Shown piece by piece: positions 12,501-62,758 of a stretch of 64,000 nucleotides of DNA (its first letter is position 1; the number at the start of each line of letters is the position of its first letter). Origin of the DNA: Ostrinia nubilalis. Its lineage: Eukaryota > Arthropoda > Insecta > Lepidoptera > Crambidae. The stretch is from positions 17,048,501-17,112,500 of the forward strand of contig NC_087090.1 of NCBI RefSeq assembly GCF_963855985.1, written 5' to 3'. The translations under genes were made by a program, and so were the position numbers. The notes under the pieces were generated by a model. It was not told the DNA's origin and made no database searches. It saw only the letters and a list, made by a program, of their open reading frames with translations.

Positions 12501-15500
12501 GGGTGAAAATTAAAAATTAAGTTTTAATTGCCTGGCCTCCAGATCTCGCTCAGACTAGTTACATCCACAACTAATTAATATACATTGCATAATCCGTCTC
12601 ATGTGTGTATGATATCGAGAATATGTAAGCATACCTACATACTTACTTGTTGTTCCAAACATGAAATATTTCAGATTAGTGGCAATCAGTGTTGTCTGTT
12701 CGTGCACCTCTATCAACTTTTGCACTTGACTTATCACCCAAAGCTACATTGTCTGAGACTGTGCCATTTTAGATCCGTCCCAAAGATTAAGAAGTATCTA
12801 GCAGCGAGCCTTACTTGTGTTATCATCCAAAGTTTAGCAGCTACATTGTCTGCAACTGTGCCATCTTAGATCCATCCCAAAGATTAAGAAGTGTCTAGCA
12901 GCGAGCCTTACTTGTGTTATCACCAAAGTCTAGCAGCTACATTGTCTGCGACTGTGCTATCTTAGATCCATCCCAATCCCAAAGATTAATAAGTGTCTAG
13001 CAGCAAGCCTTACTTGTGCTATCACCCAAAGTCTAGCAGCTACATTGTCTGAATCTGTGCCATTTTAGATCCACATCCGTCCCAACGATTAAGAAGTATC
13101 TAGCAGCGAGCCTTACTTGTGTTATCGCCCAAAGTTTAGCAGCTACATTGTCTGCAACTGTGCTATCTTAGATCCGCTCCAAAGATTAAGAAGTGTCTAG
13201 CAGCAAGCCTTACTTGTGTTGTCACCCAAAGTCTGGCAGCTACATTGTCTGAGACTGTGCCATCTTAGATCCGTCCCAAAGATTAAGAAGTGTCTAGCAG
13301 CAAGCCTTACTTGTGCTAGCACCAAAGTCTAGCAGCTACATTGTCTTAAGACTGTGCCATCTTAGATCCATCCCAATCCCAAAGATTATGAAGTGTCTAG
13401 CAGCAAGCCTTACTTGTGCTATCACCTAAAGTCTAGAAGCTACATTGTCTAAGACTGTGCCATCTTAGATCCATCCCAATCTCAAAGATTATGAAGTGTC
13501 TAGCAGCAAGCCTTACTTGTGCTATCACCCAAAGTCTAGCAGCTACATTGTCTAAGACTGTGCTATCTTAGATCCGTCTCAAAGATTAACAAGTGACTAG
13601 CAAATGATTGCAAAATATAGTTTGTTAACTCTCATCTTTTTCACACTTAACTGGGTCTCTATGCTTTCCATCTAACTTCCCTCGGTTCAGTCTCATTTCA
13701 TATCTTAATTTGAATACGCAATGCTATTTTCGCGATCGATACCTTGTCATTCTCTTGAGTTACAATAATAATATTCTTCGGCCTGGCCACTGGTCACGTC
13801 ACCGAGTCGTTAATCTTCCTTCAACTGTCAATTTGCTGGTCGGTTGCACTATCTGAGGTGAACGAACGGTTATAAATAGCGCATCGTTATCAGTGCAGGC
13901 AATAAAAATGTAGGTAATTGTACAACACTAGTGCATTATTTCCTGCTGCTTTGTTTTGTTTCAAAGCAAATTGTTCACGTGAACAGCTGTTTTATAGTAA
14001 CACGTAGATCATGACATAATATGGTACGCAAGAATATTATGAACGCGGTATTCTTTTCTCTTATTCACTGACTCCAGTTTATCTCTGTAATCGCCACTGT
14101 TACCTTCATAAAATATGCGTGGTAGAGTTTCTGTCTATTCACGTTTAACAGAATTCCTTCGTGCTAGAACATGTAAATAGGTACATTGTCTGGTGGTAGA
14201 GTTCTCGTTCAATTATTTACCACACTTAGGTACTTACACAAATCAAAGGTCTTCAAATCACAAGTTACTTAGTCTGGTACGCTTCCTCTGGGCCCGATAA
14301 CATAATTTTTTCACGACCCTTCTCTCATTCAGGAACGGAATGTGGACGTGGAGCATCGGTTCGGCGAGTCGCTGGGAGGGGGGGCGCACGTGTCCCGAGG
14401 GAAGAAGAAGTCTACTCGCTGCCGCATGGTGTTCCGCACCGAAATCGTGTCGGCGGCCGGCCAGCGGGAGACGCTGCAGGTCTGCTCCACGCAAATCATC
14501 TGCAGTAAGTACCAGAAGTTGCAATGTCTTCATCACTGTAGTAGTGATGTGACCTAGCATAAGTGAAACTGTGTATTGGAACCAGCAACGGACTTTATGA
14601 AATATCCTTCTTTTTATAGATCGTTTATTCGTTTCATCCACGAAGATGAGTCCCACCAATTTTTGGTTGAGGGAAGCGCAGAGGGCTGAAAGTTTGACCC
14701 GAGCAATCTGAACGTCATTTTTGTAGTGTGCGTGTGCACTCATTGATAATTTAGCGTCTACCGATAGCACTCAAACATTCGCGGAAGAATGGTGGGGCGC
14801 GTCTTCGTGGATAATACGATCTATAACCTATTTACATTTCCAGCCCGAACACCACAGAATTTAGAAACCTTTTCCAATCGAACATTTGTTATTTTAATAA
14901 TGGAACTAACTTGAAATCTTTCCTTATAGCTCAACCGCCAGGGGTACCAGAAGTGTGCCGCAAGTCCCTGGTCTCTTGTCCAGCGAACGGAGGCTTGGAA
15001 CTCTACCTGTTAGGGAAGAACTTTCTCAAAGAGACGCGCGTGGTCTTCAGCCAGAAGCAGGAAGGCCGCAGCGTGTGGGAGGAAGAGGTGGTACCTGACA
15101 AAGAGTTCTTGCAACAGGTGAGTTTTTAACAGTATTATTTTTAACTACATATCCGATCGTTCTCAGTCAGATACTCATTACCAAAAAGCTATTGACTGCT
15201 GGACGAAAGCCTTCCTCAAACACTTCAATACCGCTAATTGTCTATTTGAAGTCGTGGATGCATCGAACAGAGTCCTGTGTTTATCGTGAGGTGGTTTCCA
15301 CTAGAGAACTCATACTTTTCGAACGAACGAGACTTAGGAATAGTCCCATCAAACACTCCATCTTTCATAGGTTTGGCGACAAATATGAGCCAGCCATAGC
15401 CTTTTATGAGAGTAAAACGAGATTCCTTTGGTGCCCTTTTAACCATCATAAAATTAGGCCTTAAGCAACCATTCCTCTCTACCCCATGTTTAAACGTTAT

Positions 15501-21500: not shown

Positions 21501-24500
21501 CGGCGAGTCGTCGTGCGGGCCGGACGGGCCCGAGCCGGCCGCGGGCCAGATGCTCGCCGACGACCTCAAGGTCGTGGACCTCCGGCTGAAGTCCGAGACC
21601 ATCGCCAGGGACCCCCAGACTCAGGTAACACGACGAGAGCGTTGAGAACCGGCCCGGTTGAGAGAGCCGCAATTACAATTTGGAATCTTGTTGACATCTG
21701 CCATGTAAGGTTGCCTTGATAAGTAGACGCAGAATTTTATCCAACAAGTCGCAACACCTTCTTTTTTGCTTTTTTGTTCACGACAAACATAATAATTTGC
21801 AAAGTTGGTGTAACGGCCACACAGCGCAAAGTGTACGCCTTTGACTAACGAACAACGACTGCCCGATCAGGTGAGCTACGGCTACGACGCCATAAAGATG
21901 TCGCCGACTACCCCCGGGCAGAGCGAGCCGCCGTCGCCGCTGGCGTCGTTCACGCAGCAGCTGCAAGCCATCCAGAACCAGGTGCAGACGGACAAGATGG
22001 TGGAGACGGTGACCGCCGCGATATTCAACTCGGACGACAACGCGGGCCAGATCTACCCGCCGATGATGCAGGCGATGGACCCGATGCGGCAGCTGATTTC
22101 GGCGAAGACGCAGATCGACATCCAGCCCGACATGAAGGTGTTGAATCCCGAGCTGATGATCACGGACACGTCGATGCAGGCCACGGTCATGCCGCCCGAG
22201 CAACGCATGATGGTTTACAACACGGCGCGCCCGGACGAGACCTTCAACCCTTTCGGCGCCATGACCAAGATGGAGATGGAGTCGAATCAGATCGAGAGGC
22301 GGCTGGCGCGGCAAAGCGCGCACATGGAGGCCTTGGTAGAAGACGCCATGAAGGTACGTCGCTATTATAACTTGTGTCAATTTTATTCTTAAGTAGGAGC
22401 TGCCACCTGCTTTTGCTTCAAGATATTATTATACTTAAGTGATTTCGGTTAATTAATTGACAAAATGAAATTATTACTTTTTAATCATAAATAATTTAGA
22501 CTAACACGGGATTTTTAAAATGTAATAATTTTTAGTGATTTTTTAGCTTTCAGTTTTTCGTAACAACCAAAAACGAATTTAAATACGTATTTAAACTTCG
22601 GAATATCGACATAGTTTATTATCGTAAACCAAAAAATTGCATATCTAATAAGAACAGCAGAATAGCTAGGATTATCGTCATGTGTCCACATGATTATAAT
22701 TTTGGTAACATTGAAAAAGGCGACGGCGGCGATGTTGCCCGCGGACGCTGCCAAACTGGACGAGCTGGTGAACTCGCGCGTGGACGACCTGTCGGGCAGC
22801 TCGCCCGCCAGCCGCAGCCCCGCCGCGCCACCGCTCGCCGCTGCCATCCCGCCTGACGTCATCCTCGACCCGCAGGTAGGATATATACTCACAGTCACAG
22901 GTCGGCAGCTAGGGCAGGACGAGCTGGGAACCCTAGCGGGGACTAACTGTCGGGCAGCGGCTCGCCCGCGACCGTTCTAAGCCCATGCCATCCCGCCCGA
23001 CGTCATCCTCGACCCGCAGGTAGGATACACTACAGATCGGCAGCTGGAAAAAGACGAGGTAACCCCCGTGGGAACAACCTGTCTCGTCCAGCCCGCCCGA
23101 CGTCTCCTCGATCACCTCGGCAGCTAGGGCACGACGAGCTGGGAACTCCCGCGTGGATGGATGACCTCAGACTCACTCGCAACCGTCTCAGCCCATGCCA
23201 TCATTGCCATCCCGCCAGACGTCTTCCTCGACCCGCAGGTAGGATACACTACAGATCGGCAGCTGGAAAAAGACGAGGGAACCCCCGTGGGAACAACCTG
23301 TCTCGGAACCAACCTCGGAACCCCCGCGAGGACGGATGACCTCAGCCCCGACGCGCCGCCGCTCGCCGCCGCCATCCCGCCCGACGTCATCCTCGACCCG
23401 CAGGTAGGATATACTTACAGGCCGGTAGCTAGGGCACGACAAGCAGGGAACCCCCGGGAGTAGGGTTGTGACGCGCCCCGCGACGCATCGACAGCCCTAG
23501 CACCGAGCGCAGAGATTTTGACAACCCTACGGCTGCGCGGCCGCACGCCGCACGGACCGAGCTAATATAAGAGACGGCGGCGACCGCGGGCGCCTAGCAT
23601 TCGCTCGGGAGCCATCGTAACAGCCAGACGATCGCGCGCGCGTCTACGGCTAATTGCGCAAGAGTCCCCCCTAGCGAATAGCTGCCCTCACTATACACTA
23701 CAGATCGGCAGCTAGAAAAAGACGAGGGAACCCCCGTGGGAACAACCTGTCTCGGAACCAACCTCGGAACCCCCGCGTGAACGGATGACCTCAGCCCCGA
23801 CGCGCCGCCGCCATCCCGCCCGACGTCATCCTCGACCCGCAGGTAGCAAACACTACAGATCGGCAGCTGGAAAAAGACCGCCTCTGTGGTCTAGTGGTAA
23901 GACCACCTGCTTCAGACGCAGAGGTCCCGGGTTCGATTCCCAGTGGGGGCAGATTTTTCTGTTCGGTTTGGTTGGTGGTAGGGCTTGTTCTAAGTCCGCC
24001 TGGCTAGCTACCACCATCTTACCTAAGTCTGTCGCCATAACAACAATGTTAACAGCATTATTGTGTTCCGGCAGTTAGAGGTAAGATAGCCAGTTCCTCC
24101 GTGGTTGAGGATTCCGGGTGAAGCTCGCTTCCACCTTCGGCCTGATCGTCACTTACCATCAGGTGAGATACAGGCCAAGAGCTTCCTCGTTGTGGATAAA
24201 AAAAAATAAAAAAATAAAAAAGACAAGGGAACCCCCGTGGGAACAACCTGTCTCGGAACCAACCTCGGAACCCCCGCGAGGACGGATGACCTTAGCCCCG
24301 ACGCGCCGCCGCTCGCCGCCGCCATCCCGCCCGACGTCATCCTCGACCCGCAGGTAGGATATACTCACAGTTCCGCAGCTGGGGCACGACGAGCTGCCGG
24401 GCTAGGATTAATAGACTAGCAGGGACTAACTGTTGGGCGGCGGCTCGCCCGTGACTGTTCTCAGCCCATGCCATGGCATCATGATCCCATCCCGCCCGAC

Positions 24501-27500
24501 GTCATCCTCGACCACGACGAGCTCGGAAGCCCCGGGACTAGGTTAATTAGTGTCATAGCTCTCATTGCTCACGAGTGAGTACAATCATCATCGGTTGCCC
24601 AACGTCCTGATGCGTGCGCTTCATTATTCTGTGGCTCGACTGTCGCCTGGCGCGGCAGCCAAATAAAAAGCCTAATACAAGCCGGACAGGCCGGATAAGA
24701 CCGTAAAAAGCCAAACATGTCCGGCTAAAGCCGAACACCTGGCAACCCTATCTGGGACGAACTCTCGGGCGGCGGCTCGCCTGCCACCGTGCACAGCCGC
24801 CCGACGTCTGAGTAGGATATACTCACAGGCCGGCAGCTGGGGCAAGACGAGGGAACCCCCGTCGGAACAACCTGTCTCGTCCAGCCCGCCCGACGTCTCG
24901 TCGATCACCAGGTAAAGACACTTACAGGCCGGCAGCTTGGGCACGACGAGCTCGGAACCCCCGCGTGGACGGATGACCTCAGCCCCGCCGCGCCGCCCGC
25001 CATCCCGCCCGACGTCATCCTCGACCCGCAGGTAGGATACACTACAGATCGGCAGCTGGAAAAAGACGAGGGAACCCCCGTGGGAACAACCTGTCTCGGA
25101 ACCAACCTCGGAACCCCCGCGAGGACGGATGACCTCAGCCCCGACGCGCCACCGATCGCCGCCACCATCCCGCCCGACGTCATCCTCGACCCGCAGGTAG
25201 GATACACTACAGATCGGCAGCTGGAAAAAGACGAGGGAACCCCCGTAGGAACAACCTGTCTCGTCCAGCCCGCCCGACGTCTCGTCGATCACCAGGTAAG
25301 GACACTTACAGGCCGGCAGCTAGGGCAGGACGAGCTCGGAACCCCCGCGAGGACGGATGACCTTAGCACCGACGCGCCGCCGCTCGCCGCCGCCATCCCG
25401 CCCGACGTCATCCTCGCCTCGACCCGCAGGTAGGATATACTCACAGGCCGGCAGCTAGGGCACGACAAGCAGGGAACCCCCGGGAGTAGGGTTAAGGCAA
25501 TTAGTGTCATAACTCTCTCATAGCTCACGAGTGAGTACAATCATCATCGGTTGCCCAACGTCCTGATGCGTGCGCTTCATATTATTCTGTGGCTCGACTT
25601 TCGCCTGACGCGGCAGCCAAGGACAAGCCGGATAAGACCGTAAAATGCCGAACACCTGGCAACCCTATCTGGGACGAACTCTCGGGCGGCGGCTCGCCTG
25701 CCACCGTGCACAGCCGCCCGACGTCATCCTCGACCCGCAGGTAGGATACACTACAGATCGGCAGCTGGAAAAAGACGAGGGAACCCCCGTGGGAACAACC
25801 TGTCTCGTCCAGCCCGCCCGACGTCTCCTCGATCACCTCGGCAGCTAGGGCACGACGAGCTGGAAGCTCCCGCGTGGATGAATGACCTCAGCCTCACTCG
25901 CAACCGTCTCAGCCCATGCCATCATTGCCATCCCGCCAGACGTCATCCTCGACCCGCAGGTAGGATACACTACAGATCGGCAGCTGGAAAAAGACGTGGG
26001 AACCCCTGTGGGAACAACCTGTCTCGTCCAGCCCGCCCAACGTCTCCTCGATCACCTCGGCAGCTAGGGCACGGACTAACTGTTGGGCGGCGACTCACCC
26101 GTGACTGTTCTCAGCCCATGCCATAATGCCATCCCGCCCGACGTCATCCTCGATCCGCAGGTAGGATATACTCACAGTTCCGCAGCTGGGGCACGACGAG
26201 CTGCCGGGCCAGGATTAATAGATTAGCAAGGACTAACTGTTGGGCGGCGGCTCGCCCGCGACTGTTCTTAGCCCATGCCATGGCATCATGATCCCATCCC
26301 GCCCGACGTCATCCTCGACCACGACGAGCTCGGAAGCCCCGGGACTAGGTTAATTAGTGTCATAGCTCTCATAACTCACGAGTGAGTACAATCATCATCG
26401 GTTGCCCAACGTACTGATGCGTGCGCTTCATTATTCTGTGGCTCGACTTTCGCCTGACGCGGCAGCCAATAAAAAGCCGGACAAGCCGGATAAGACCGTA
26501 AAAAGCCAAACATGTCCGGCTAAAGCCGAACACCTGGCAACTCAACATCCTCGACCTGTAGGTAGGATATACTCACAGGTCGGCAGCTGGGGCAAGACGA
26601 GGGAACCCCCGTGGGGACGACCTGTCTCGTCCGGCCCGCCCGACGTCATCCTCGACCCGTAGGTAGGACACACCAGGCTGGCAGCTAAGAACTGGGCGCT
26701 AGCAGAAAAAAAGAACTGCAACTTCTGTATCATCAAACGGTAGGCCGAGGCAGCTAGGAAAACAGGACTAATCACACCTCTCTATTCCTCCACTGCAATT
26801 TCTCTACTACCTAAGTATCAAGCGACAGACCAGAAGCTAGCAGAAAAACAGTTATTATTTCCCAGAACTGTAACTTCTGTACTTCTTACTACTAGCGATA
26901 GGCCGATGCTGCTGAACACGGGAGGGATCCCACCTCTCTGTCCCTTCACTGCAACTTCTTTATCATCGAACGGTAGGGCGACGAGGCAGCCAGGAAAATG
27001 AAATCCTATGTCTCTTTCCCACCTCTGTTACTTCAGTCATCAAGGAAACCGGGATTAATTTCCCACCACTGCAACTTCTGTAGGTAAACCAACGAGCGGT
27101 AGGCCGAAGCAGTTTGGAAAACGGGACTAAATAATCCAAAATCTCTTTACCACCACTTAACGCAAGATGCTAAGACAAGGGGTACCAAATTGATGCACGT
27201 GTACAAGGTAATTTAAACTTTTGACCAAAGGCTGCTGAAAAACAATCTACATGTACTCTCATCATGCGCTAGTAACGGCGCTAACTTGAAGGACAATCTA
27301 GGGTCCATCATATGATGATGATGTGGCGAATAGTGATGCTTATCTACAGCGAAATAGAATCTATCAATTTTAGGAATTGGAATCGGATGAATGCTTTCCT
27401 CTACCTCTACAATCATCTTACCCACTTACTCGTAATATTCTCCATACTGTACATTTTTAGGAAGTAAGGAATGTGACTTTATAGTATTCTTAAGTAGTCC

Positions 27501-30500
27501 TGCTCACCGCCCATACATTACTCAACTCTTTGTCGTGGCTGCTTCAATCCATTCCATCATTTAACATAACCATTTATCATTAACCTTCGCTACAGTCGTT
27601 CATCTTTCGCCATACCATTTCAGCGTTCAGATCCATTACATCAGGTCTTATATACGGTATTGTATTGTAAACTTTAGTCTTCAACCTTCGTGCTTTTGCA
27701 TGTTGTCACACTCAGCCGGTCTGCTTCGTTTACTGGTAAAAGGTTTCATAAAAAAAACTAAATTCTGTAAAGTTTAAGATAATAACTATGTGGGTAGTAA
27801 CAGAAAAGAATATAATCTGCTAAGTCCGCTTTTGTTCATATCGTACAAGATGCTTGTATTGTACCTACAGCAATATTAACACGGTTCTTTTAATTTTAAG
27901 GTTAACCAGTCGTTTCATTCAGCTTTCGTTCGCGATAACTTAACGGTAGTTTTTGGTAATAGTTTCGCGTGAATCGATGAACATTACGTTGCATGACGGG
28001 TATATCAACCTCAAGAATTTTGGTAAGTCTCTCCAGTTTACTGGTGCCATGCCCTTAAATTTAATAGGCAGAAGAACCAATTCGTTGTTACTAACCTCTC
28101 AAATGCTCCTCAAGGTGTCGCCGAGCATGCTGTGCGACAACAATCAGCGCATGGGTCTCCCCACGACGACGTCGCAGGAGGAGTTGATGATGCTGCCAGA
28201 ACAGGTGCAGCTGACATCGGTGAAGACGCCGCCCGCGGCCGTCAAGTCCATGATTCTCAACGCGGCGGCTGAAATCCTGACGTCAGACACCACCATGAAT
28301 GCACTCGTCACCTCCGCCATCAACACGGCGAATATTCTCACGACGGGGACTGAGAACGCGGCTGGCGGCGTCATGCAGGTAAATTACTGTTTCATTGAGC
28401 ATTTGTTTATTTATGTTATTCTATCACCCTTGTTGTCTGCCAGAGATTCTTTATTTCTTACCTACATCCTGAAAGTCTAAACTAGGTACTGGTAATCGTA
28501 GTGGGACATACCATACGCTGAGTAGGTAAGGTCCTAATGGGATGTTAAGGCTTTTGTTTATTATTATGACTTCGACATAGAAAGACATTGTTCAGCTGTC
28601 TGCATAAAAAGCCAGGAGACCTAAATTATGCTTCTCCTAAACTGCAAATCTACAAATCTCAAGAATTCCTTCATTATTTGGATTAAAACAATTAATTATT
28701 TCGAGTCAGAGCTATTCATTGGGATCTTAATTCGCCCTTCATCTGCTACTGATACTTACCAATTAGATTTAATTCAACCTTAATATAGTTCCAAAATACT
28801 GAACTGTCCTATGCATGACATTGACAGTGGGGCGCCACCGTCAATACCGGATCGCTGGTTCCGATTTTTGCCATGTTGGAAACCATATAGTTGAACGATG
28901 GTAGTGTCCCCCTGTCATTGAGTTTGGTGGGACAGTTCCGCGTGGGTCATCTATAACGTAATGGTAATACCACAGACAACAGACGCGCAACCTCCCGCGG
29001 AGCAGCCGGGCGAGACTCCGCTCGTGGCCATGTCTCAGGCAGTCTCACAGGCCGTGACGCAGGCAGTCTCGCAGGCCGTCTCGCAGGCTGTCTCGCAGGC
29101 TGTCTCCCAGGAGATGACCGCGCCTGTACAGGGGCTCACCGATATGAGCGATCAGGATCTCCTCCAGTATATCAACCCCAGCACGTTTGATACCGGTGAG
29201 TACGATATGTATTATTAAGGGTGAATTCGACCAAACAAGAGTAAATATTAATATTAATCTAAGAATAAATCGACAGTTTTGACATTATTCCCATACTGAA
29301 ACTGTCAATGTGCCGGTTATACCAGGAGTTATTCTCGGATAAAAGTTTGTTCGAATCGGGCCTAAGGTAGGAAAGAATGGGGCTGGAATTCGTGACAGCT
29401 TTGTCCAGTGAGAGCTTGTCGCTTGGTGGATTCACAAGTATGTAACACGTCATGTACAGTCAGCGTTTAGTTCGTGACGCTTAAGTAGCCAAAAAATTCG
29501 CAACACGTCTGTCAACTTTTTGGCCATTTTGGGTGTCCCGTGTCTGTGAACTGTGCTTGGCTGAAAATAGCCAAGTAGACAGTGGAAGTACCACATGGAA
29601 TGCCATACCAAACCATTAATGTCTATCACAGTAAGACTAGATCGAAACTGGGTAAAGATTATGATTAAATGAAATTGGAGTCTGATCCGCTTTAGCCAAA
29701 TAAGATTGAGGACCAATATGCTGTCACAAATTCAAGCCCAGTGAGTGTTTTTCCATAAGACCGGGCAAAGACATGTTATTTGACGTGCCAGCCTCGTTGT
29801 CGCGAGATATAAGTGGCGGTGAAAATCCGCTTGTGAAAATTCATATTTTTACCTCTATCGCTGCCAGGCCATGGAAAATCATCCATTCTTATTCGAATAC
29901 GTTAGCTATTATGACCTCAACCACCTCTTTGGCATAGTGAGCCAAAGCAAATGATAATAAGTAATTAAGTAATTTATTAAAAAGAGTTTTATTAATTAAT
30001 TTATTAACGGTGTGGGTTTAGTCATTAGTTAATATTTAAGAGTAACGGCGTAGTTACTGTGCTACTTACCTAAACTGTTATTTATTTATTCCTTTAGGTC
30101 CTTTTTAAGACATTGATACTATGGCTACAAAAGTACCTATTATGTATAATATTTAATTATTTATTCTAAGAATAGCGTGTAGTATTATTTGAATCTTATC
30201 TAAACTCCTGAATTGACAAATAAAAGCACTTAAGTAAGTCAGTCGTGACTGAATTTCACTACGCCTGTGCTCCTAATTTTCATTTGTTAATTATTCTTGT
30301 AAAACTGCTACAATTAGATTAGGCCGATAAAATCGCGAGACATTCGCAACGCTCACAAGGGTTCTTGTTAACTATTATATACCAAAATACATGGTTTTAA
30401 ATAAGATAACATAGGGGTTTTTAACTTTTACTAATTACTATAGGTAAATGTAATAAGATTACGAGTATAATGTTAGGCAACCTATAATGGGTTAAAATTA

Positions 30501-39023: not shown

Positions 39024-42000
39024 CTGTGGAAGAGAAAAAATAATGTGTTAACAGAATCAACGCAAAAACTACTTAATTGTCAATATGATAATGTAAAATA
39101 TTTTTGAATTTTCAATGTGAAACACTAATTTAATTTGCACAGGATTATTGGGATATTTATAAAGGATAGAGAAGCTGTCGTTAGCAAAATTCTTGCCCAA
39201 TTTTGTAAAGATTTAGTTTTAATTCTTTTTCACTGCAGCTGCTGCATTAGTTCTGTCGTCTAATAAACAAACTTAAAATATGCACCGCTAGATCGGTTAC
39301 ATGAATGTTAAAGTCGCACTAAAGGAAGGTGCACGGATTGCAGTGCAGGTTAGTTGAACCGAGCCAGTGTTCGGATCGCGAAATCTAGTGCGTAGTACAT
39401 ACAGGGTGAAAACTAAGTGATCTCACTTGATTGCTTTTATGATACTATTTCACGAGCACTTTCATGATTAGTTTTAGTCCAATTTTTCGATATCTCACAC
39501 AGTTTAGAAATAATAGAGTGAGATCACTTATCGTTTCCACCCTGTATAGTATATCGATGCAAGGGCAAGCTGTGGACGCAAGAGACAGTTGTCGACGCTG
39601 ATGGACAGCAGCGCGGCCTCGCTGTGACAGGGGACTTACTAATGGACAGCAGAGCCGCTTAGGGGGTCGTGTATCAGTGACAGGGGACTTACTACGCGGC
39701 GGCAGGCTGTGGACGCAGAGACAGTTGTCCACACTAATGGACAGCAGGGCTGCCTCCCTGTGGCTGGCCAGGGGACCGTGTGTTCTCTATAGCTATGTGA
39801 CAGGGGACTTACTGCGCGGCGGCAGGCTGTGGACACAAAGACAGTTGTCCACACTGATAGACAGCAGGGCTGCCTCGCTGCGGCTGGCGACTGGCGGCCC
39901 GTAGCCGCGCACCGGCAGGAACTCCAGTCCTGTGACGAACATCATGTGCGCATTCTTCACGTGCAGCACTCGCTGTGGACAACGGACACAGATATAGTCA
40001 CAGTTATCGTCACTTTCCACGGCGGCGTAGCGAACTAAACGCGCGTGTTTATACGCTTGGTGTGCCAAAGTGTGTGGTGTGTCAAAGAGGTCACCCACTT
40101 ATCATCTTGACATGTTGCTGCCAAAGCACTGGTTTTCAGTGGGTGCCTTGTACACACGGCACACTGTTAACTATCCATTTCCGTTTTTGCTCTCGCTCTC
40201 ATCAAATGGCGATTCTTTGCGATAGAACGAGACGACATGACAGGCAATGGATAGTTAACACTGTTGCCGATGGTACGTAAGGGAAAAATAAATGTTGACA
40301 GATTTACATTGTTAGCTAGCTGCAAGCAGACGTACACCAAACGTAATGAGTATCAACGTCATCTGTGGCTGATGTTTATACATTTAAGTTACAAGGAAGG
40401 AACCTGTTTATTTAACGATAACTTGTTTCTCGAAAGAGAAAATAAGTAGCAAAACTCGTTGAAAACACACTTTTTTCACACACATCACAATGTGTAACGA
40501 AAAACAAACTAATTAATTACTGCATTATTGCATTATTACTTAGTTCAAAAAAATTGTTCTGTCATAGGAGATAAGACACAAATTAATAAATTTGTATGTA
40601 AGCAGTAAAAACGTCTACTTAAAAAATATGATTTCATACAGTCTCGTAATAGAACGCATTTCACAAGTAAAAAGTTATAAACAAATTAATCATATCGGTG
40701 CCTCGCAGTGTTTACAAGTTAGACGACTTTGCAACTTCGCATCGACTTTCCTCATAGAGGCGATTCCCGCGGCCTTGCCTTGACCCCGAGCGAATACGCT
40801 TTTTATATTGAATGTAAAACTCATTTATTGAACACCGTACAGTCTCTTGCTTAATTAATTAATTACAATATTTGATGACGACTTGGTATAGGAATTTCCG
40901 CGAGCTCTTTACCATACAAAACATATTATGATTGTTGCTTTTGATAGCTCACAGAACACAGTTTATAGGTGTACCGACGAACTAGTGAAGGTCGCGGGAA
41001 TCCCTTAATGTGAGCAGCGCAGGACCGGTCATTGTGGAAATTCCTTAGGGAACACCTTTCTTTTTGCAGCAGTGGACAAAAGCCTCTTCTCTCCTAGCTC
41101 CTAATTTGCGTGCCAAACGAGATCCCCTTTTCCCAACAGTGGACTGTCTTTGGTGAACTTAGACGGCCCTCTCTCTCCTAGCACCTAATTTGCGTTTGTG
41201 CCCAACTGGGTCAAAAATACTGGTCCCATCTACTTTATAACTTTGTGTCTTTTGTATTTAAGTACTAGCGGCCACTCGCCTTTTTGCCCTCTTAGGGGTG
41301 GAGTTTCATAAAATCCGTTCTTAGTAGACGTCTATCTACACCCTATAAGGAACCTACCTGCCAGATTATAAGAAAACAAAACACGCGCGGCGGGTTTAAT
41401 CTACAAAGGATTCACGAGCGAGTAGCGAGTGACGTACGCGCGCGTAGCCTTCACCCTATGTAAAGAAATATTCGCTATAGAAAGAAGAAAAAATGCGTGT
41501 GGTGCGCTAGATGGCGAAGCTTCTTGTAGCAGTCAGCCCTATCGCAATTGACTGATGAATCAAGTTCGTACCTGTAACCAAAAACGTACAAAAACACGTC
41601 TCAACGACTCACCTGCAGACTGAAGGCGACGTAGATGTCGACGGAGCCGCTGAACATGGTGCCGACGCCGACGAACCGGCCGTCGTCGCGCACGGCGAGC
41701 GCCGAGAGCGACTCGGGCGCGCACGCCGCGCGGCGCAGCGAGCCCGAGCGCGTCCACAGCTGCAGCAGGCCCTTCTGCTTGCCCGAGCGCGGCGGCGGGC
41801 TCGCGGTGGTGACCGTGCGGTACCCGCGACACTCTTAGGGGAGGCCTTTGTCCAGCAGTGAACAAAAGTCACTCTTTTGGTTGCGAGCCTCCTTTCTCCT
41901 AGCTCCTAATTTGCGTGCCAAACGAGGACCCCTTTGTCCAATAGTGGACTGTCTTTAGTAAACTTGGAAACCCCTTCCTCTAGCACCTAATTTGCGTTTG

Positions 42001-45000
42001 TGCCCAACACGGTCCATAACATTGGTCCCATGTACTTTGTAACTTTGTTTCTTTTGTAGGTATTTAAGTACTAGCGGCCGTCTGTGTCCTTGTACGCGCG
42101 GAGTCCTTTTTACTACCCTAGGGGTGGAGTTTCGTAAAATCCGTTCTTAGTGGACGTCTACACACTATAAGGAACCTACTTGCCAGATTATACGAAAACA
42201 AAACACGCGCGGCGGGTTTAATCTACAAAGGATTCACGAGCGAGTAGTGAGTGACGTACGCGCGTGTAGCCTTCACCCTATGTAAAGAAATATTCGCTAT
42301 AGAAAGAAGAAAAAATATGCGTCTGGTGCGCTACATGGCGACACAGGAGCTTCTTGTAGCAGTCAGCCCTAGACTAGTGAATCAAGTTCGTGCCTGTAAA
42401 CAAAAACGTACAAAAACACGTCTCAACGCCTCACCTGCAGACTGAAGGCGACGTAGATGTCGACGGAGCCGCTGAACATGGTGCCGACGCCGACGAACCG
42501 GCCGTCGTCGCGCACGGCGAGCGCCGAGAGCGACTCGGGCGCGCACGCCGCGCGGCGCAGCGAGCCCGAGCGCGTCCACAGCTGCAGCAGGCCCTTCTGC
42601 TTGCCCGAGCGCGGCAGCGGGCTCGCGGTGGTGACCGTGCGGTACCCGCGACACTCTTAGGGGAGGGCTTTGTCCTAGCTAGCTTCTTTGCATGCCAAAC
42701 GGGATCCCCTTTGTCCAACAGTGGACTGTCTTTTATCTTTAGTTCACTTGGAAACCCCCTCTCCTAGCACCTAATTTGCGTTTGTGCCCAACTGGGTCAA
42801 AAATACTGGTCCCATCTAATTTGTAACTTTGTGTCTTTTGTATTTAAGTACTAGCGGCCACCCGCCTTTTTGCCCTCTTAGGGTTGGAGTTTATACGAAA
42901 ACAAAACACGCGCGGCGGGTTTAATCTACAAAGGATTCACGAGCGAGCAGTGAGTGACGTACGCGCGCGTAGTCATCACCCATTGTAAAGAAATATTCGT
43001 TATAGAAAGAAGAAAAAATGCGTGTGGTGCGCTAGATGGCGACACAGGAGCTTCTTGTAGCAGTCAGCCCTAGACTAGTGAATCAAGTTCGTGCCTGTAA
43101 ACAAAAACGTACAAAAACACGTCTCAACGACTCACCTGCAGACTGAAGGCGACGTAGATGTCGACGGAGCCGCTGAACATGGTGCCGACGCCGACGAACC
43201 GGCCGTCGTCGCGCACGGCGAGCGCCGAGAGCGACTCGGGCGCGCACGCCGCGCGGCGCAGCGAGCCCGAGCGCGTCCACAGCTGCAGCAGGCCCTTCTG
43301 CTTGCCCGAGCGCGTCAGCGGGTTCGCGATCGTGAACATTCGGTATTCGTTTGGCTTGTCTTCTATTAATCCGAACCTGGGGAAGATTAAATAAATATCC
43401 TTCAATAAATATCCTTGGACATTTTACACTGCGCTTCTACTCCCAAACTAAGCAAAGCTTGTACTATGTGTACGCGCCAGCATTAAAACCTCATACATTT
43501 CGAACTCATGTCACACTATTCTATCACTCATTCTGACAGTCCTTTTTCCTATCCTCTCCCTCCCACCTTCAGTCTCGCTCTCGCATCGCAACGCGCCGCT
43601 TCGCCTACCTATCTGGGCGTTAATACTAAATAAGTATCCAAAATAAACCAATTCAAATAAACCCAAATCGCGCGCTAAACTCATCTCAATAAAAATTCAA
43701 GTGTTTGTGAAAGTGAAAGAAGAACCAAGCTTGGACCGTCCTGTGGAGTCTGCTCAATCGAAGGTATCCCATCCCGCTCCTATCCCAATCTCCTACAACT
43801 CCTTTCTGGTCCTTCGAGCCGGATGGTTCATTTCCTATCCTTTACACTTACAGAAAATCACAACTACACATTTTCACGCATCCGTCATTTTGACAACTCT
43901 CTAGAAAATTCTAGAAAATTCGCTCGTTTGACACATTCTTTCTGGAAAGTTCGATTCGTTTGACATTTGACACATTCTAGAAATTACTATTCGCTCAAAC
44001 GTCAACTCGTTGTTTGTAAACACGTGTATTTTTTAAATTCAATCTTTTAAAATTTTATTTCAATTCAATTTCAAATTCGCTTACATACGCTACGCATTTT
44101 ATTTTCCTACTGGATTATAAATAAATACGCACAACTCAACTCATTTTTTAACGCTAGCTCTCGTGCGTGTGTTTGCTCACCTACAATACAATGGAGGGAG
44201 TAAAACGCAAAATTAATTTGCTTGAAGCTAAAAAAGAAGCGCTTTTTCAGAGGGTTCAGGAATTATACGACCTCAGCCTAAAGGTCTCCGACCCTCAGAT
44301 TGAACAAATTTTCATGTCTCGCATGCATTCGATTGAAAAAACAAGATCGGATTTTCTTGATACTATTGACGAACTTAATTTGTGTTATATGAAAAATGAT
44401 GAGGAACTCAAACCTACATTTGCCGCACTCAACTCGTTTGACGATTTGTACTGTAACATCCTTTCGGTGCAAAGCTCCATCGCACAACTAAAGGCCAACA
44501 CAGAGCGACGCAAACAGGATTTCGTAAAAAAATTACCGCCTTTAGAACTAGTCTCTTTCGACGGAGCCCCTTCCAAGTGGCCCGTTTTCTACCAAAATTT
44601 TAAAACGCTTATTCATGAGAACACTGGTTTGTCTCCAGGTGAAAAGGCTCAATACCTTATAGGAAAACTTTCCGGAAAAGCACTTACAATTTGCTCGGGT
44701 ATTCCACCTACTGGTGAGAACTATTACATAATTTGGAACAACCTATTAGAAAAATACCAAGACATAAGAGTACAAGCCTCTATGTATTTGGAACAATTAA
44801 TAAACTTCAAATCGCAATCTTTAGATGAATTTTTGGAACAGTATTGCTCAGCTGAAGCTGCCTTACGACGTTTACAGATTGATGACCTTTCCGATTTCAT
44901 TTTGACTCATATTGCTCTCAGTAAATTAGACAAAGACACTCTAAATTTATTTGAACAATCCATTAAGCACGTAAAAATGCCTACGTTTAATGATCTCAAG

Positions 45001-48000
45001 ACTTTTATAAAAGAACAGAATAAAATCCATGCTTTACGCTTATGTTTTACGCAGAATAAGCCGTACGTTAATAATAAAACGAATTTCGCATCGCAGTCTA
45101 AAAACTCGAAACCGACACAGTCGTTTGTTTCTAATACAGCTTCTGGAGTAAAACCCAATCAACATTACTTCCAATCTCAACCGAATTCGCAAGGCTCATA
45201 CACTCCATCCGCTGTACGCAAGAATTGTCAACTTTGTAAGACGGAACCTGAACATGCCCTGTTCAAATGCAGTTATTTTCGCTCGAAAAATGCGCCAACT
45301 CGCTACTCTTTAGTGAAAAAATGTAACTTTTGCCTCAATTGTTTAGGCTTTCATAACATTAAAGATTGCAGATCTCAAAATCGTTGCTCAGTTTGCCAAC
45401 GGAAACATCACACTCTTATTCATATAGATAACTTTAACGTGAATAGACCTATGACGTCACAACAGCTGACTTGCAGCGCGACGCTTTCGCCGACCGACGC
45501 GTCCATGTCCGCGCCCGGTCCGGTCACGCCGCCGTTGCAATCGATGCCAACCAACAATGTGTCTCTCTCTGCAGTCACGCCGTCGATCGCTGATGAATCT
45601 AGTACCACGGTCTTATTACCCACCGCGTCAGTGTATACTTATGACAATAATAAGACGTGTCAAAAATTACGCGTGTTTCTAGACACAGGTTCGATGAGCA
45701 ACTTTATCACAAATAAATGTTGTGCGCGACTGAACTTAAAAGTCAATCCGCTACCTACCACTATTAAGGGCATAGGTCAGTCTGAAAGTGTGTCGCTAGG
45801 ATATGTATCTTTCACAATTGCCTCACGCTTTGATCCCAGGTGTAAATACACAATTAACGCACGCGTCATTGATACAATAACCGATTATTTACCTAATGTA
45901 AGGGTTGACATAACCCAGTTATCGCATTTACAAGGTCTTCCTATGGCTGATGACAGCTTCGATATCCCTGCTGAAATCGATTGTTTGTTAGGCAATGAGA
46001 TATTCCCGCTTCTTTTAGGTAGTAATAAAATAACTTCACCGCAATCCTCTGTCATCGCTATCGAAACCACGCTCGGATATCTCGCTATGGGACGCGCTCA
46101 GTGCTACTCAGCTCATTCACGCAATGATAATAAAGCATTCTTTTGCAATGTAGACTCGCACTCATTAGAATCACTCACGCAACGCTTTTGGGAGCTTGAA
46201 AGTGTACCTACTAAGAGACACATCAGCCCTGACGACGAAATATGTGAAAACATTTTCCAATCAACTCATTCTCGCGACGACTCTGGGACGTATACCGTTT
46301 CTTTGCCATTTAAACTCGACCCATCAGAACTCGGCGATTCTTACTTTACTGCTAGGCGTCGCTTCTATAACTTAGAGAAAAAGTTAGACTCAACTCCGGG
46401 CTTACGCACTAACTATAATGAAAATATTCAAGACTGTATCGATCGCGGTTTTCTGTCAAAAGTCGAAAACGCATCGAATTCAGAGGAAAATACTCCAAAT
46501 TATTATATACCTCATCATGCAGTATACCGACCCGTTTCAACGCATATTATTTCGATTTGATCCTGAATCACCGATTGATACTTATCAATACAATAGGGTT
46601 TCTTTTGGCGTTTCTAGCTCGCCTTACCTCGCTATGCGTGTCGTTCGCCAACTCGCTGAGGACGAGCGCGCGAATTATCCTATCGCCGCGTCTGAAGCTC
46701 AATCCTGTATGTATATGGACGATTATGTCTCATCGATGGACGGGTTAGAAAAAGCTGAACAATCTTACCATCAAATGGTTAAGATGTTCATGGCCGGGGG
46801 GTTTAAAATGGTTAAGTGGATCTCGAACAACCCTGAGCTTATAAATAAGATTCCCGATTCGCATAAAAATCCACAGCTCGTCGATTTTGACACTGACTCA
46901 GAAATTACGACAAAAATTATAGGCATGCAGTGGCAACCTAATGATGACGTTTTTCTTTACAAAATTAACTCTACTAACTCTGACCAATGCACAAAACGCA
47001 CGATTCTTTCCGCAACTGCTAGATTATTCGACCCTTTGGGTTTGCTAGGCCCTGTGACAGCGTTTCTCAAACTTTTAATTCAAGAATGCTGGCAGCGCGA
47101 ACTTGAATGGGACCAGCCAGTTCCAGACTCAATAAAAAATAAATGGAATCGGTTTGATAGTGAGATTAACAATTTATCGCAATTAAAAATATCTCGTCAT
47201 ATAGGAATCACCGCGGGTTGTCACGTCACTATCATGGGCTTCGCGGACGCCAGCGAAGTATGCTACGGAGCTGTAGTTTATGTGCGCGTGAGCTCTGATG
47301 CAGATTCACCCGGTGAAGTCTTTCTTATCGCATCCAAATCGCGCGTCGCGCCTTTAAAGAAAATATCTCTTGCGCGGCTTGAACTGTGCGCAGCGCTGCT
47401 CTTGACAAATCTTTTATTATCGGTTCGCGATAGTATAGAGAATCGTTATCCTGTTAACTCAATTTACGCATTTTCAGACTCGACTGTCACTCTCACGTGG
47501 ATACATTCTCCCGCGTACAAATTTCACATTTGTTGCGAATAGAATTACTGAAATTAATTCGAAACTCAACGCAAAAATTTGGCATCATGTTAATGGAAAT
47601 GAAAATCCTGCAGATGTAATATCGCGACCTGTAACTCCTAAAGCATTATTAAATCAATTAAATTGGTTTCACTCTCCTCAATGGACAGCTCAGCCAATCT
47701 CGCAATGGCCTATCGAGCCATTTCAAGTTTCATCTAACAGTGTTCGACTGGAAGAGAAAACTATCGCTCTTGTTTCAGAGACAAACTCTCAATCGAACTC
47801 TCACCCTTTCGATCGATTAATTGATCGCATTTCCACGTACCCAAAATTATTACGCGCTACTGTGTACGTGTTACGCTTCGCTAAAATACTACGTTCAAAC
47901 GGAGTGGTTACATCCTCTGATTTAGAACTCGCTGAACTCTATTTAGTACGCCATATACAGGCACTATTTTTTACTCAAGATATGCACGCAATTAAAAATA

Positions 48001-51000
48001 ATAAACCCTTTAACAAATCGCTTCTCAAACTTAACCCTTTCATTGACTCTGATAATATACTTCGTGTCGGAGGTCGACTCACTCACTCTCAACTCAACTA
48101 TGGACAAAAGCATCCAATCATTCTATCGCCTAAACATCGCTTCACTCAACTTTTAGTTGATTACTTTCATGTATGTAATTTACATACTGGTCCTTCACTT
48201 CTACTCAGTCTGCTTAGACAGAAATTTTGGATACTTTCCGCACGTAACTTAGTACGTCAAAGAGTGCATCAATGCAATATCTGTTTTCGTTTAAACCCTA
48301 AATCTACAAACCCTCTTATGGGCGACTTGCCATCATTTCGCGTTTCAGAAGCTAAAGCCTTTGTTTATACATCGGTCGATTATGCAGGTCCCTTCTTTAT
48401 TACTCACATTCGCCGCAGAGGTGTTAAAAGCCAGAAGGCTTATATTTGTTTATTTTGCTGTCTTACAACTAAGGCTCTACACATAGAGTTAGTTTCAGAC
48501 TTAAGCTCTGATCTATTTCTCGCCGCTTTTCGTCGATTCATTTGTAGAAGAGGCCCCGTTTCCATGATATATAGCGACGGAGGTACTAACTTCATTGGCG
48601 CTAAACGCAAGCTTGACGAAATTTACGCTCTTTTAGAATCTGACTCTCACAAAAATTATTTAAGTTCACATTTGGCTGAACAACGCATTAAGTTTCTTCA
48701 TAGTCCACCATATGGTCCGCACTTTAACGGCATCACAGAGATAAATGTTCGTTATGTAAAAACGCATCTTTATAAAGTTATTGGTCTTCAAGTGTTAACA
48801 TACGAAGAGTTCAACACTGTACTTGTACAAATAGAAGGCTTATTGAATAGTAGACCATTGTGTGTTCTTAGCTCTGACCCATCTGATATATCCGCTCTCA
48901 CTCCCAATCACTTTCTCAATATAACTCCACTGAAATTCTTACCAGTAGAGAATGTCTCTGATATTTCTGACAATCGGTTAACGCGTTATCAGTTAGTCAA
49001 TAAATTAGTGCAAAGCTTTTGGCGTCGCTGGAGTCAGGAGTATTTAACTTCTCTACAACGCCGTGAAAAGTGGAATACGGTGACCAAACCGATAGATGTG
49101 GGCTCTGTTGTTGTTATAAAAGATGACAATGCGCATCCTCTTTGTTGGCCATTGGGTGTGGTTGTGGAAGTATATCCCGGAAAGGACAAAATCATTCGCA
49201 CCTTAAAGATTCGCACTGCAACCGGTACTTATGTTCGGCCTGTAGTTAGAGTTTGTCCTCTTCCTTTACAGTAACTCAAATAATGCTTTTAACTTTAATT
49301 TTTCTTTAACTTCAATTTAACTCAACTTTAACTTTAATTTAACTCAACTTTAACGCTAATTTAACTCGTTTAGTTCTCTCTAACGCATGTTTTTTTACGT
49401 TTTTAACTTTTTTTTTACAAACGCTACTCAATCTAGAGGAAGACCTCTAGGCCGGGGGAGTTGTACGCGCCAGCATTAAAACCTCATACATTTCGAACTC
49501 ATGTCACACTATTCTATCACTCATTCTGACAGTCCTTTTTCCTATCCTCTCCCTCCCACCTTCAGTCTCGCTCTCGCATCGCAACGCGCCGCTTCGCCTA
49601 CCTATCTGGGCGTTAATACTAAATAAGTATCCAAAATAAACCAATTCAAATAAACCCAAATCGCGCGCTAAACTCATCTCAATAAAAATTCAAGTGTTTG
49701 TGAAAGTGAAAGAAGAACCAAGCTTGGACCGTCCTGTGGAGTCTGCTCAATCGAAGGTATCCCATCCCGCTCCTATCCCAATCTCCTACACTATGGGTAC
49801 TAGACAACGGATATAAACATACTTAAATACTTTTTTTTTGTAAATACATACATACTTATCTATTATACAGGGTGTCCCAAAAACAATGGATAACCCTGTA
49901 ACCATCTATAGGCCTCGCCATGGTCTCCCTAACGTCCAATTTTGACCCCAGTAAAAATATCACCGTTTTCAAGATTTTTAAGTTTTTGTGCATTTTTAGA
50001 AAATTGCCACCTGCGATTACTTTTTCTCATGCCATTTCTACAAATGAGGATACTTTTCAATCTAGTTTTTTTCCTTATCACAAGGGATAGTTGGGCTATC
50101 AAAAGAAAAGATTAAAGTTCAACAAACTAGTTTAAAAGTATGAAAATTTTAAGAAATTGCAGAGAAGAAGGAAAAATTAATTCATTGTCTTGCACTTTTG
50201 ATCAGCCGTCGTGTAAAAAAAATGTAGGAAGACCATCGTGCCCATTACCTTAAAAACTTCCTTGGTTAATTGAGATTATAAAAAGGTATCACAAGCCTAT
50301 GTATTCTGTGTTATTTTTATCTTATGGCTACTTGAATAGCAACTAGTATGAAAACTGCAAAAATGAGTTTTTCTCGTAATAGTTAAACTAGGACTGCATA
50401 GTGGCATTAAATATAAATGGATAATTTTCAGCGTAGGAATTTTAATAAAGCAACATTTTATCATCATCATCGTCATCATTTCAGCCATAGGACGTCCACT
50501 GCTGAACATAGGCCTGTACCCCAATGATTTTCATAATGACCGCTTAGTAGCGGCCTGCACCCAGCACCTTCCTGCTTACCTTTATGAGGTCGTCGGTCCA
50601 CTTTGTAAGTGGACGTCCTACGATGCGCTTTCCGGTACGTAGCCTCCACTTGAACCCTGTTGCCCCATTGGCCGTCCGTTCTGCGTTTTTGTGATTACTT
50701 AATTTTTGTTTGAAACCTTATAAATGTGCCTATAGACAGATACCCGTGATAATACACGGCTCGGAAACGTGGATTTTTTGGACAGCGTGCTATGGAAGGG
50801 GCTATGCTCGGGTTTCTTCACGAAACCAGAAATTAGGAGATCCGTAAACGAACTAAAGTCGCTGACATAGCTCGACGGATCAGCAAGCTGAAGTGGCAAT
50901 GTGCAGGGCACAGTAGTTTGCAGAACTGAGGCAGCAGGGTTAAAGTGGAGGCTACGTACCGGAAAGCGCATCGAAGGACGTCCACCTACAAAGTGGACCG

Positions 51001-60878: not shown

Positions 60879-62758
60879 TCACTTTGGCTTGAACGGCCAC
60901 AGGAACTTGAGCCTGTGGGCGCCGAAGGTCAGGATGTGGACCAGCGGCAGGTTGGCGATGTACACGGTGTGGAAGTGGCTGATGATGTCGTAGCACTCGT
61001 CTGGCTCGAACACTTCCTGCCCATCTGGCGAGTCCTGGAATATAACACGTGTATAGATAGATACTAAAGAAAATAAAAATACTAGATATCTAGATAGAAC
61101 ACCATTGTACACCACACAAGACAAGAAAAGAAATAAATATGCAAAAGATACGGTACTATTGAGGTGGCCTTTTAGCTATAAAGTGATCTCTTCCAGACAG
61201 CCTACTACCTTCATATGAAAACGTAATCGTTCCCAAGCCATTATGGACCTGACTCAGAGAACTAATAAGCCCTTTGCACTGCCTATTATCAGTTTGAAGA
61301 ATTTATCATCATAACGTTTTTTTTTTAAACCCAGGGCCGATCGAGTTAACTGCCTCTCCCTTACACCTCCCCGCGTTCACCTCGTCTGTACCAGAGCGTC
61401 GCTGCGACATCGCGGCAGCTAGGTGCGCACTTAACTCGACCGGATTGTACCTTATATCACCTGAAATGTATCATTTGAACAGACCCTAGATAATCACCTC
61501 AATCGTATGCCGTATCATGATCTCCTTGAAGTAGAACCAGACGGCGGCCGGCGCCTGCCAATAGTACCACTTGAAGTAAAGGTGCGTGTGGAGATACAGC
61601 GTGATGAGCACGGCCAGCTTGAAGGCGCTGAAGTCGCGGCGCGCGGCGTACTCGATCGTTTCAGAAAGGAACCCGATGAGGAACGACTTCTCGGACAGGT
61701 TGAAGTTCTCTGTCACCTTCTTTTCGACTAAGAAGTAGGCTGAGAAGACGAAATCCTGTGTTAAAAACAGAGCTAGAATATGAAACGCTTTCGGTTTCCA
61801 CCAAGTGAAGCCAGGTTATTAAAAACTTTAACCGCCTCTGTGGTCTAGTGGTAAGACCACCTGCTTCAGACGCAGAGGTCCCGGGTTCGATTCCTAGTGG
61901 GGGCAGATTTTTCTGTTCGGTTTGGTTGGTGGTAGGGCTTATTCTAAGTCCGCCTGGCTAGCTACCACCATCTTACCTAAGTCTGTCGCTATAACAACAA
62001 TGTTAACAGCATTGTTGTGTTGAGACAGTTAGAGATAAGATAGCCAGTTCCTCCGTGGTTGAGGATTCCGGGTGAAGCTCGCTTCCACCTTCGGCCTGAT
62101 CGTCACTTACCATCAGGTGAGATACAGGCCAAGAGCTTCCTCGTTGTGGATAAAAAAAAAACTTCTCCGGTCTGCTCCACCCTGGTGAAAACCGGGCCTT
62201 AAATTAGTCGTTTAAAGGTCAAAAAAATACTAAGTACTTGCTTGTATTTCTATCGCGTGTGTTGTAACACCTGAGGTCACCATAGTCCACAACCCTGGGA
62301 TATAGTCTTCTTTTCGATGAGCTACTTACAACTACATGGTATGGTGTACAGACAGCAGGCACTTGGATAATTTGAGATCAGATTATAGGCCTTTTGTATC
62401 ATCAGTTTTTGACCAAACCCACAGAACTGTTAAATGGACTAGAAAGCTAAAACTCACCCAGAAACCTCCTCAACCCATTCTCCTTGTCAGAATCAGCAGC
62501 CGCGATCATCTCGATGGCTTCCTCCTCGTTCATAATAGTCCCGATCAGCAGGCGAGGCCGCGCCTCCCGCCCGGGCCTTCTAAACGGAGGCGCGTCGTTC
62601 TCCCGCAAGGAGTTTAGATAAGAAGGCGCTGACAGCTGCACCTTTAGCTTCGTCTCCTCACTCTTCAGAGGGACGATGGGCGCGGAAGCCGCCTTTATTT
62701 GAACGGGATCCATTTTACTGGATTCCGTGCTGGTTTTAGAATCTAGTGTTGGCTCCAT
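60879..62758 (-). CDS. Possible ciliary CLAMP / CABCOCO1-like protein, 3 exons
   Basis: Exons 62758-62458, 61739-61498 and 61034-60879 join with matching phases to 699 nt (232 aa). Exon 1 is polar and probably disordered (MEPTLDSKTSTESSKMD, ending MIAAADSDKENGLRRFL). Exon 2 is helical (AYFLVEKKVTENFNLSEKSF, FLSETIEYAARRDFSAFKL). Exon 3 has VFEPDECYDIISHFHTVYI and ends WPFKPK. The order of the helical part recalls the flagellar C1a-32/CLAMP family that includes vertebrate CABCOCO1; this rests on remembered pattern similarity only. The exon 2 acceptor was chosen at tctcag|CC because the earlier AG breaks the frame. It is tail-to-tail with UTP23. Confidence 0.6.
61331..61445. mobile_element. Short MITE in the CLAMP-like gene
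   Basis: Inverted ends ccgatcgagttaactg and cttaactcgaccgg; related to 36012-36190 in opposite order. Confidence 0.5.
61788..62202. mobile_element. MITE of the 'ggtttccacca' family, split by a SINE
   Basis: Ends cggtttccaccaagtgaag and ccaccctggtgaaaaccggg are inverted. The SINE at 61829-62156 sits inside, so this is a nested insertion in intron 1 of the CLAMP-like gene. Confidence 0.6.
61829..62156 (+). mobile_element. tRNA-derived SINE, second copy
   Basis: Nearly identical to the SINE at 23879-24216, with only a few substitutions seen (for example gggcttattct against gggcttgttct). Target duplication aaaaactt at 61821-61828 and 62157-62164. Confidence 0.85.

Follow-up and report, generated by a model that had tools for sequence, protein, structure and literature searches.

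Probable origin of a donor-carrying intronic array in an NFAT5-like gene of Ostrinia nubilalis by tandem duplication across an exon-intron boundary

Introduction

The DNA analyzed here, called the window below, is a stretch of 64,000 nucleotides from Ostrinia nubilalis (Lepidoptera, Crambidae; NCBI RefSeq assembly GCF_963855985.1, contig NC_087090.1, positions 17,048,501 to 17,112,500 of the forward strand), and carries on its plus strand an NFAT5-like gene, recognized from profile matches to the Rel homology and dimerisation domains and from NFAT5 being the best match in PDB. The match to the dimerisation domain lies over its curated cut-off (49.4 vs 28.3 bits), and that to the Rel homology DNA-binding domain slightly under its own (24.2 vs 27 bits). 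One coding exon of this gene appears to be the source of an irregular array of copies in the intron that follows it, many of them holding the end of the exon with the splice donor, and several the start of the intron as well. The exons bordering this intron are numbered 12 and 13, as in an earlier annotation of the same DNA (the original prediction), and the features on which the argument turns are the following, with slashes marking splice boundaries here and throughout.

22720 to 22875, plus strand: source exon (exon 12), 156 nt, with a codon boundary at both ends; sites read directly
22876 to 26690, plus strand: irregular array of exon-12-derived copies, in the intron after exon 12
28115 to 28378, plus strand: next exon (exon 13), acceptor CTCCTCAAG/GTGTCG, donor CAG/GTAAAT

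Results

Exon 12 and its copies

Direct reading gives exon 12 the acceptor GAAAAAG/GCG and the donor CAG/GTAGGA; its 3' end is CTCGACCCGCAG, followed by GTAGGA. The 18-mer across this boundary, CTCGACCCGCAG/GTAGGA, was found 14 times at up to 2 mismatches (exon 12 and 13 further matches), always on the plus strand and at 22864-26668, where 100 shuffles at the same threshold gave a mean of 0.00, bearing out the original prediction that the exon end and its GT donor recur at least 13 more times. The 14 donors stand at 22876 (the real one), 23020, 23239, 23404, 23843, 24354, 25032, 25197, 25430, 25741, 25960, 26161, 26562 and 26663. With exon 12 as the BLASTN query (E up to 1e-3) there were 14 extra matches, at 22917-26662, and outside 22720-26668 the 64-kb window had none. 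All of these extra matches begin at exon base 39 or later, i.e. the first 38 exon bases are never included, and the acceptor side with the exon start (22600-22757, 158 nt) found only chance words of 10-11 nt in the array, with a best E of 0.24. When 45 intron bases were added to the exon query, several matches spanned the boundary (e.g. query 93-201 at 23340-23440); the copies hold exon end and intron start contiguously and in their original order. Over exon bases 93 or 97 to 156, identity to exon 12 is 90.6-93.3% in three units and, with gaps, 80-85% in two more. Degenerate pieces included, 21 exon-end pieces lie downstream of exon 12, 15 of them with a CAG/GT or TAG/GT donor and 6 without one, a count made up of 20 pieces found by the motif [GA]ACGTC (exon 12 and two matches in a non-exonic block being dropped) plus the copy at 26562, which has no such motif, and other motif-less copies may be missed. 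The core of the exon end is CATCCCGCCCGACGTCATCCTCGACCCGCAGGTAGGAT.

The start of the exon 12 peptide is found with 0 to 2 changes in the proteins P0001-P0003 and is less closely kept in P0005 and P0007, and because it is kept in all five, exon 12 is a real, old coding exon. Its presence in P0001-P0003 is also the reason why exon 12, rather than one of the repeated pieces, looks like the source, which agrees with the earlier claim that an NFAT exon, donor included, seeded an array in its own intron. Seven NFAT relatives were found in the protein database, six at 35-82% identity and one, P0006, at 98% over only 17% of the query. Aligned with five of them, the middle of exon 12 is about 21-22 residues shorter than in P0001-P0003; P0005 and P0007 are short there too, and both (2 of the 5 aligned) are without the DVILDPQ end. 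P0003 carries the exon 12 end and continues with VSVLFE to the end of the record (DPQVSVLFE), whereas the array here reads VGYILTV past the donor, and from these few sequences P0003 would seem not to share the intron start seen here. Five of the exon-12-like units include the region where P0001-P0003, the three long relatives, carry additional residues; judged on the same small set, these units look younger, and may have arisen after the lineage took its present short form of the exon.

Further along the gene, Tandem Repeats Finder reports a coding 12-bp minisatellite, CAGGCCGTCTCG, at 29036-29111, encoding VSQ/VTQ repeats that are also present in NFAT relatives. In P0006, an NFAT-like peptide continues, from a point inside its VSQ repeats, as an open frame built of another repeat, about 20 residues long by eye. 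This repeat often contains QV, compatible with a CAG/GT junction, and possibly represents another exon-end array in the same gene.

A mosaic of blocks

The GC content of the array, 60%, lies between that of exon 12 (74%) and that of the preceding intron (27%). Its parts are as follows.

22917 to 23019, plus strand: first copy, with the longest exon homology (bases 39-156, 72%); donor 23020
23205 to 23443, plus strand: copies with donors 23239 and 23404; the 165 nt from 23239 to 23403 form a unit open in the exon frame between two CAG/GT junctions
23456 to 23690, plus strand: non-exonic insert between copies, covered by no repeat family or long self-match
23803 to 23846, plus strand: copy with donor 23843 (CAG/GTAGCA)
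23877 to 24206, plus strand: tRNA-derived short interspersed element (SINE) inside one array unit, flanked on both sides by AAAAAGAC (target-site duplication)
24294 to 24353, plus strand: copy with donor 24354
24487 to 24513, plus strand: degenerate exon-end copy without donor; re-duplicated version at 26294-26320
24559 to 24746, plus strand: non-exonic block, with partial repeats from 25515 and 26366 (families D11, D12, D13 and D15)
24816 to 25433, plus strand: open frame of 205 amino acids (aa), the longest on the plus strand of the array, passing through several donors
24885 to 25470, plus strand: copies with donors 25032, 25197 and 25430, and variant donors CACCAG/GTAA at 24912 and 25296
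25714 to 26200, plus strand: re-duplicated block with donors 25741, 25960 and 26161; 25714-26013 is 97% identical to 22993-23292
26546 to 26668, plus strand: last two copies, with TAG/GT donors 26562 and 26663

As a whole, the array is a mosaic in which inserts and re-duplicated blocks stand among the exon-end copies, and in which a SINE sits inside one unit. Block pairs recur at offsets such as 928, 948, 859, 1793-1815 and 2732, and the nine recent pairs that were aligned are 92.5-97.4% identical. The shared spacers and larger units described in the original prediction are therefore present, and the period of about 0.9 kb that it gave them is only a rough one, followed by one non-exonic block that occurs three times, at 24559, 25515 and 26366 (spacings of 956 and 851). 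The word satellite, used in the same place, is too strong: satellite DNA consists of similar units arranged head to tail, and here no array is reported in 22720-26690 by Tandem Repeats Finder, run for periods up to 500 and scores of at least 50, and the distance between successive donors varies, 101 nt being the shortest and 678 nt the longest (165 and 219 nt occur twice each). Since the SINE lies between two copies of AAAAAGAC inside one unit, that unit predates the insertion. The SINE is 97.6% identical to 61831-62160, and nothing else in the array is matched in other parts of the window. Viral contigs were also scanned for exact patterns taken from the SINE, from a spacer and from the core of the exon end, and contained none of the three.

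Coding and splicing

An open copied frame could be taken as a sign of coding, and on this point the two strands can be compared directly: the longest open frame of the plus strand has 205 aa, that of the minus strand (24672-25319) 215 aa, and neither has a protein relative in the searched database, which is weak evidence, as that database apparently lacks this species. A coding function of the array is thus unsupported, the plus-strand frame being no longer than the minus-strand one and both being without relatives. Longer proteins by way of later donors, one form that the proposed variable protein lengths could take, are unsupported in view of a stop at 22978, which exon 12 meets when read past its own donor, ahead of the second one, so that every extension to a later donor is truncated.

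What does hold is that the intron contains many functional-looking 5' splice sites. Predicted pairing with U1 gives a duplex energy of -10.7 kcal/mol for 11 of the 14 donors (the real one included), which places them jointly 4th among the 323 GT sites in 22354-29200; the remaining three have -7.7, -9.1 and -9.1 kcal/mol, and the variant donors CACCAG/GTAAAG and CACCAG/GTAAGG have -8.3 and -11.5 kcal/mol, respectively. The donor of the exon before exon 12 reaches -6.4, and that of the exon after it -8.3 kcal/mol. Upstream of the acceptor, the fraction of pyrimidines is 0.47 for exon 12 vs 0.76 for the next exon. U1 is very abundant, which makes its titration by the array implausible, and among the three options offered earlier (U1 titration, variable protein lengths, or simply junk) the last is the best fit.

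If any YAG is allowed as an acceptor, the array offers 19 open in-frame combinations of acceptor and donor, a count made without a model of splice-site strength; 4 of the 19 use a CAG/GT junction, and the other 15 use another YAG. The segments 23239-23403 and 25032-25196 are each 165 nt long (55 residues), open in the exon frame and bounded by CAG/GT at both ends, with pyrimidine fractions of 0.71 and 0.65 before them (vs 0.47 at the exon 12 acceptor), and the variant junction at 24912 yields two more in-frame segments, of 120 and 285 nt, with a fraction of 0.59. A few units might therefore still serve as in-frame cassettes. An array of cassette or mutually exclusive exons has an acceptor and a donor of its own for each copy, and here no extra match includes exon bases 1-38.

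The nine recent duplicate pairs show 10 differences in 408 sites of a 44-nt donor core, compared with 59 in 1427 sites outside it (p = 0.14), the sites not being independent, since the pairs have some copies in common. One pair contributed no core sites, its two variant donors having been assigned to the non-core part; without this pair p = 0.27, and among the other 8 there are 3 in which the core is the more changed part. The 9-nt donors themselves changed at 1 of 81 sites among the nine pairs. Constraint on the donors is unsupported by this test, which is not significant; overall, the data neither give a good indication of selection on the array nor prove its absence.

Other duplications in the window

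About 15 kb from the NFAT array, an exon of PREB has two partial copies.

43136 to 43376, minus strand: PREB (Sec12) exon, 241 nt, with acceptor and donor (PDB 5tf2, E 1e-10)
42435 to 42644, minus strand: PREB exon-tail copy 1, last 210 nt, 96.7%, donor intact
41613 to 41822, minus strand: PREB exon-tail copy 2, last 210 nt, 96.2%, donor intact

Both copies lie downstream of the exon and are accompanied by intron sequence. They are without the first 31 exon bases and without the CCCCAG acceptor, and have another upstream sequence in common, CCTCCCCTAAGAGTGTCGCGGG, which is pyrimidine-rich. This stretch, with CCTCCCCTAAG before both copies, could be a chance acceptor, which makes the description as acceptor-less less certain for PREB than for NFAT.

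Not counting smaller repeats, self-comparison (matches of 60 nt or more) and Tandem Repeats Finder gave five local duplications of larger size in the window. Exon tails with donors account for two of them, and those at 740-1256, 12742-13602 and 39564-39892 had no match to the exons tested, among which the exons of other genes were not included. No extra copy in the window was found for any of seven other NFAT exon segments, and exon 13 likewise has none. The duplication at 12742-13602 is a tandem array in the NFAT gene region, with a 103-bp unit in 8.6 copies, and those at 740-1256 and 39564-39892 are local tandem duplications of 73% and about 77-84% identity. At 43469-49790, a BEL/Pao-like element with DUF1759 and a weak aspartyl protease match lies between two direct repeats of 329 nt, whose 100% identity suggests a recent insertion, and an inverted pair of about 804 nt, 97% identical, is found at 49864-51729.

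Discussion

We consider it probable that the array is the product of a local tandem duplication across the exon-intron boundary, which has been tolerated and which the splicing machinery ignores. As far as the DNA itself can tell, the source, the copies, the missing acceptor side, the mosaic of blocks and the insertion of the SINE into an existing unit are as described above, and what is expected of a duplication crossing the boundary was found, with exon end and intron start contiguous in copies that are local to their source within the window. In favor of this reading, the 38 leading exon bases are absent from all extra matches, the acceptor side has no significant match, donors have been lost in 6 of 21 pieces, no significant constraint on donors was detected, and the frames are no longer than those of the opposite strand. 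PREB has the same geometry, and three further local tandem duplications are found in the window.

The process would have begun with a short tandem duplication that started inside exon 12, at about base 39 of 156, and reached some 45 bases into the intron. This event would leave the real exon complete and place downstream of it a copy with a donor and without the exon acceptor. Exon 12 would still be defined by its own acceptor and the first donor, and we infer that the copy is ignored in splicing, because the exon is intact upstream and the copy has no acceptor, and that the array is neutral. The copies would then have multiplied through unequal exchange or slippage, gained non-exonic inserts and the SINE, and been re-duplicated in blocks of about 0.2, 0.9 and 1.8 kb. 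The geometry thereby offers a simple reason for its own survival, acting as a filter, in that a tandem duplication reaching from an exon into the next intron leaves the gene working.

Several observations fit this account less comfortably. Pairing with U1 is stronger for the array donors than for the donor of the preceding exon, and for 13 of the 14 it is also stronger than for that of the following exon. Four combinations form possible in-frame segments bounded by CAG/GT junctions. In recent duplicates the donor core is less changed than the rest (2.5% vs 4.1%), although not significantly. The final 34 bases of the exon are conserved much more closely than its 5' part, both relative to exon 12 (0.90 against 0.65-0.67) and among 13 copies (0.87 vs 0.56-0.66 for the rest), which could reflect constraint or conversion, with the caveat that the copies were chosen by a motif inside that very segment and that some 5' parts are unrelated inserts.

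If such donors were recognized, the array could act as a splicing decoy or off-switch, in which extra donors compete with that of exon 12 and extended transcripts, stopping at 22978, are degraded or held back, so that NFAT output is tuned. The equal and high-ranking U1 pairing of 11 of the 14 donors, the stop met by every extended exon 12 and the pyrimidine-poor exon 12 acceptor would suit such a switch, as would the decoy exons in retained introns of human OGT, which, according to PMC12017769, are recognized yet rarely spliced in. The NFAT intron resembles that case in having extra sites, but the OGT decoy has two predicted acceptors and two predicted donors (PMC12017769), and the NFAT copies do not inherit the exon 12 acceptor; with donors lost in 6 of 21 pieces and no significant constraint on the others, we regard regulation of this kind as unlikely. 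A nursery of cassette exons, in which a repeated CAG/GT serves as acceptor of one unit and donor of the next and in-frame units, at best of 165 nt (55 residues), become part of the mRNA, would draw on the two open 165-nt units with their favorable pyrimidine fractions and on the two segments added by the junction at 24912. Duplication of proto-splice sites is thought to be a source of Drosophila introns, and a duplicated AGGT segment gave rise to one in a vertebrate gene (PMC2891723 and PMC4974935). However, only 4 of the 19 open in-frame combinations use an AG/GT junction, the other 15 taking any YAG, and the frames found no protein relative in a database apparently lacking this species, and such use of the array strikes us as highly improbable.

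Expansion of a single real copy during assembly would be expected to give near-identical copies, but those seen here differ in substitutions, indels and inserts, nine recent pairs reach only 92.5-97.4% identity and one unit holds a SINE with its target-site duplication, so that we give an artefact very little credence. Scarcely any is due to a genome-wide satellite or transposon that lies here by chance and itself donated the end of exon 12. It would account for the non-exonic blocks belonging to the array and for the 2 of 5 aligned relatives (P0005 and P0007) without the DVILDPQ exon end, but P0003 does have that end, followed by VSVLFE, unlike the VGYILTV of the array, and nothing in the array except the SINE is matched elsewhere in the window.

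Tandem arrays have been linked to new introns before: Zhuo et al. 2007 are said to have traced human introns to such arrays, i.e. tandem direct repeats with splice-site-like boundaries inside genes. The NFAT array differs from these in being known from sequence alone and in its source, a conserved transcription-factor exon, in an insect. It is like intron gain by tandem duplication of the Rogers type (ATP2A1, Hellsten et al. 2011, as described in PMC4974935) in that coding sequence with an AG/GT junction was duplicated and splice signals with it, and unlike it in that the NFAT junction was already an exon donor and the copies lie inside an existing intron, where they need not make a new one. 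In copy number, the NFAT array (about 20) is matched in kind by fission-yeast cases in the same source, which are also multiple, but involve a 24-bp segment. Internal tandem repeats in human segmental duplications (PMC2812944) have units of on average about 30 bp in 4 copies and activated cryptic splice sites in some cases; they share with the NFAT array that intragenic tandem repeats change exon or intron length, whereas an exon end and its donor seeded the NFAT array, whose units are longer and irregular. Among the titles listed in literature searches, no exon-derived array with donors in its own intron was found, most subscription journals being outside the search.

Conclusions

The NFAT array is exon-derived and unusual in copy number, and its interest lies in the same geometry being present in two neighboring genes, which suggests a recurrent mutational mode. 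It is conceivable, though on balance doubtful, that in this genome intronic tandem arrays grow repeatedly from tolerated exon tails with a donor and no acceptor, NFAT and PREB being two independent cases, and that introns thereby become a nursery of CAG/GT junctions for new introns or cassette exons. The array also provides a natural series of donors of near-equal U1 pairing downstream of one acceptor, in which the roles of position and strength in donor choice could be set against each other. A duplication reaching from an exon into the next intron would keep the gene intact and store a silent exon copy without an acceptor, and if this acts as a general filter, exon tails with donors would be over-represented among intronic tandem repeats, which can be checked in any annotated genome.

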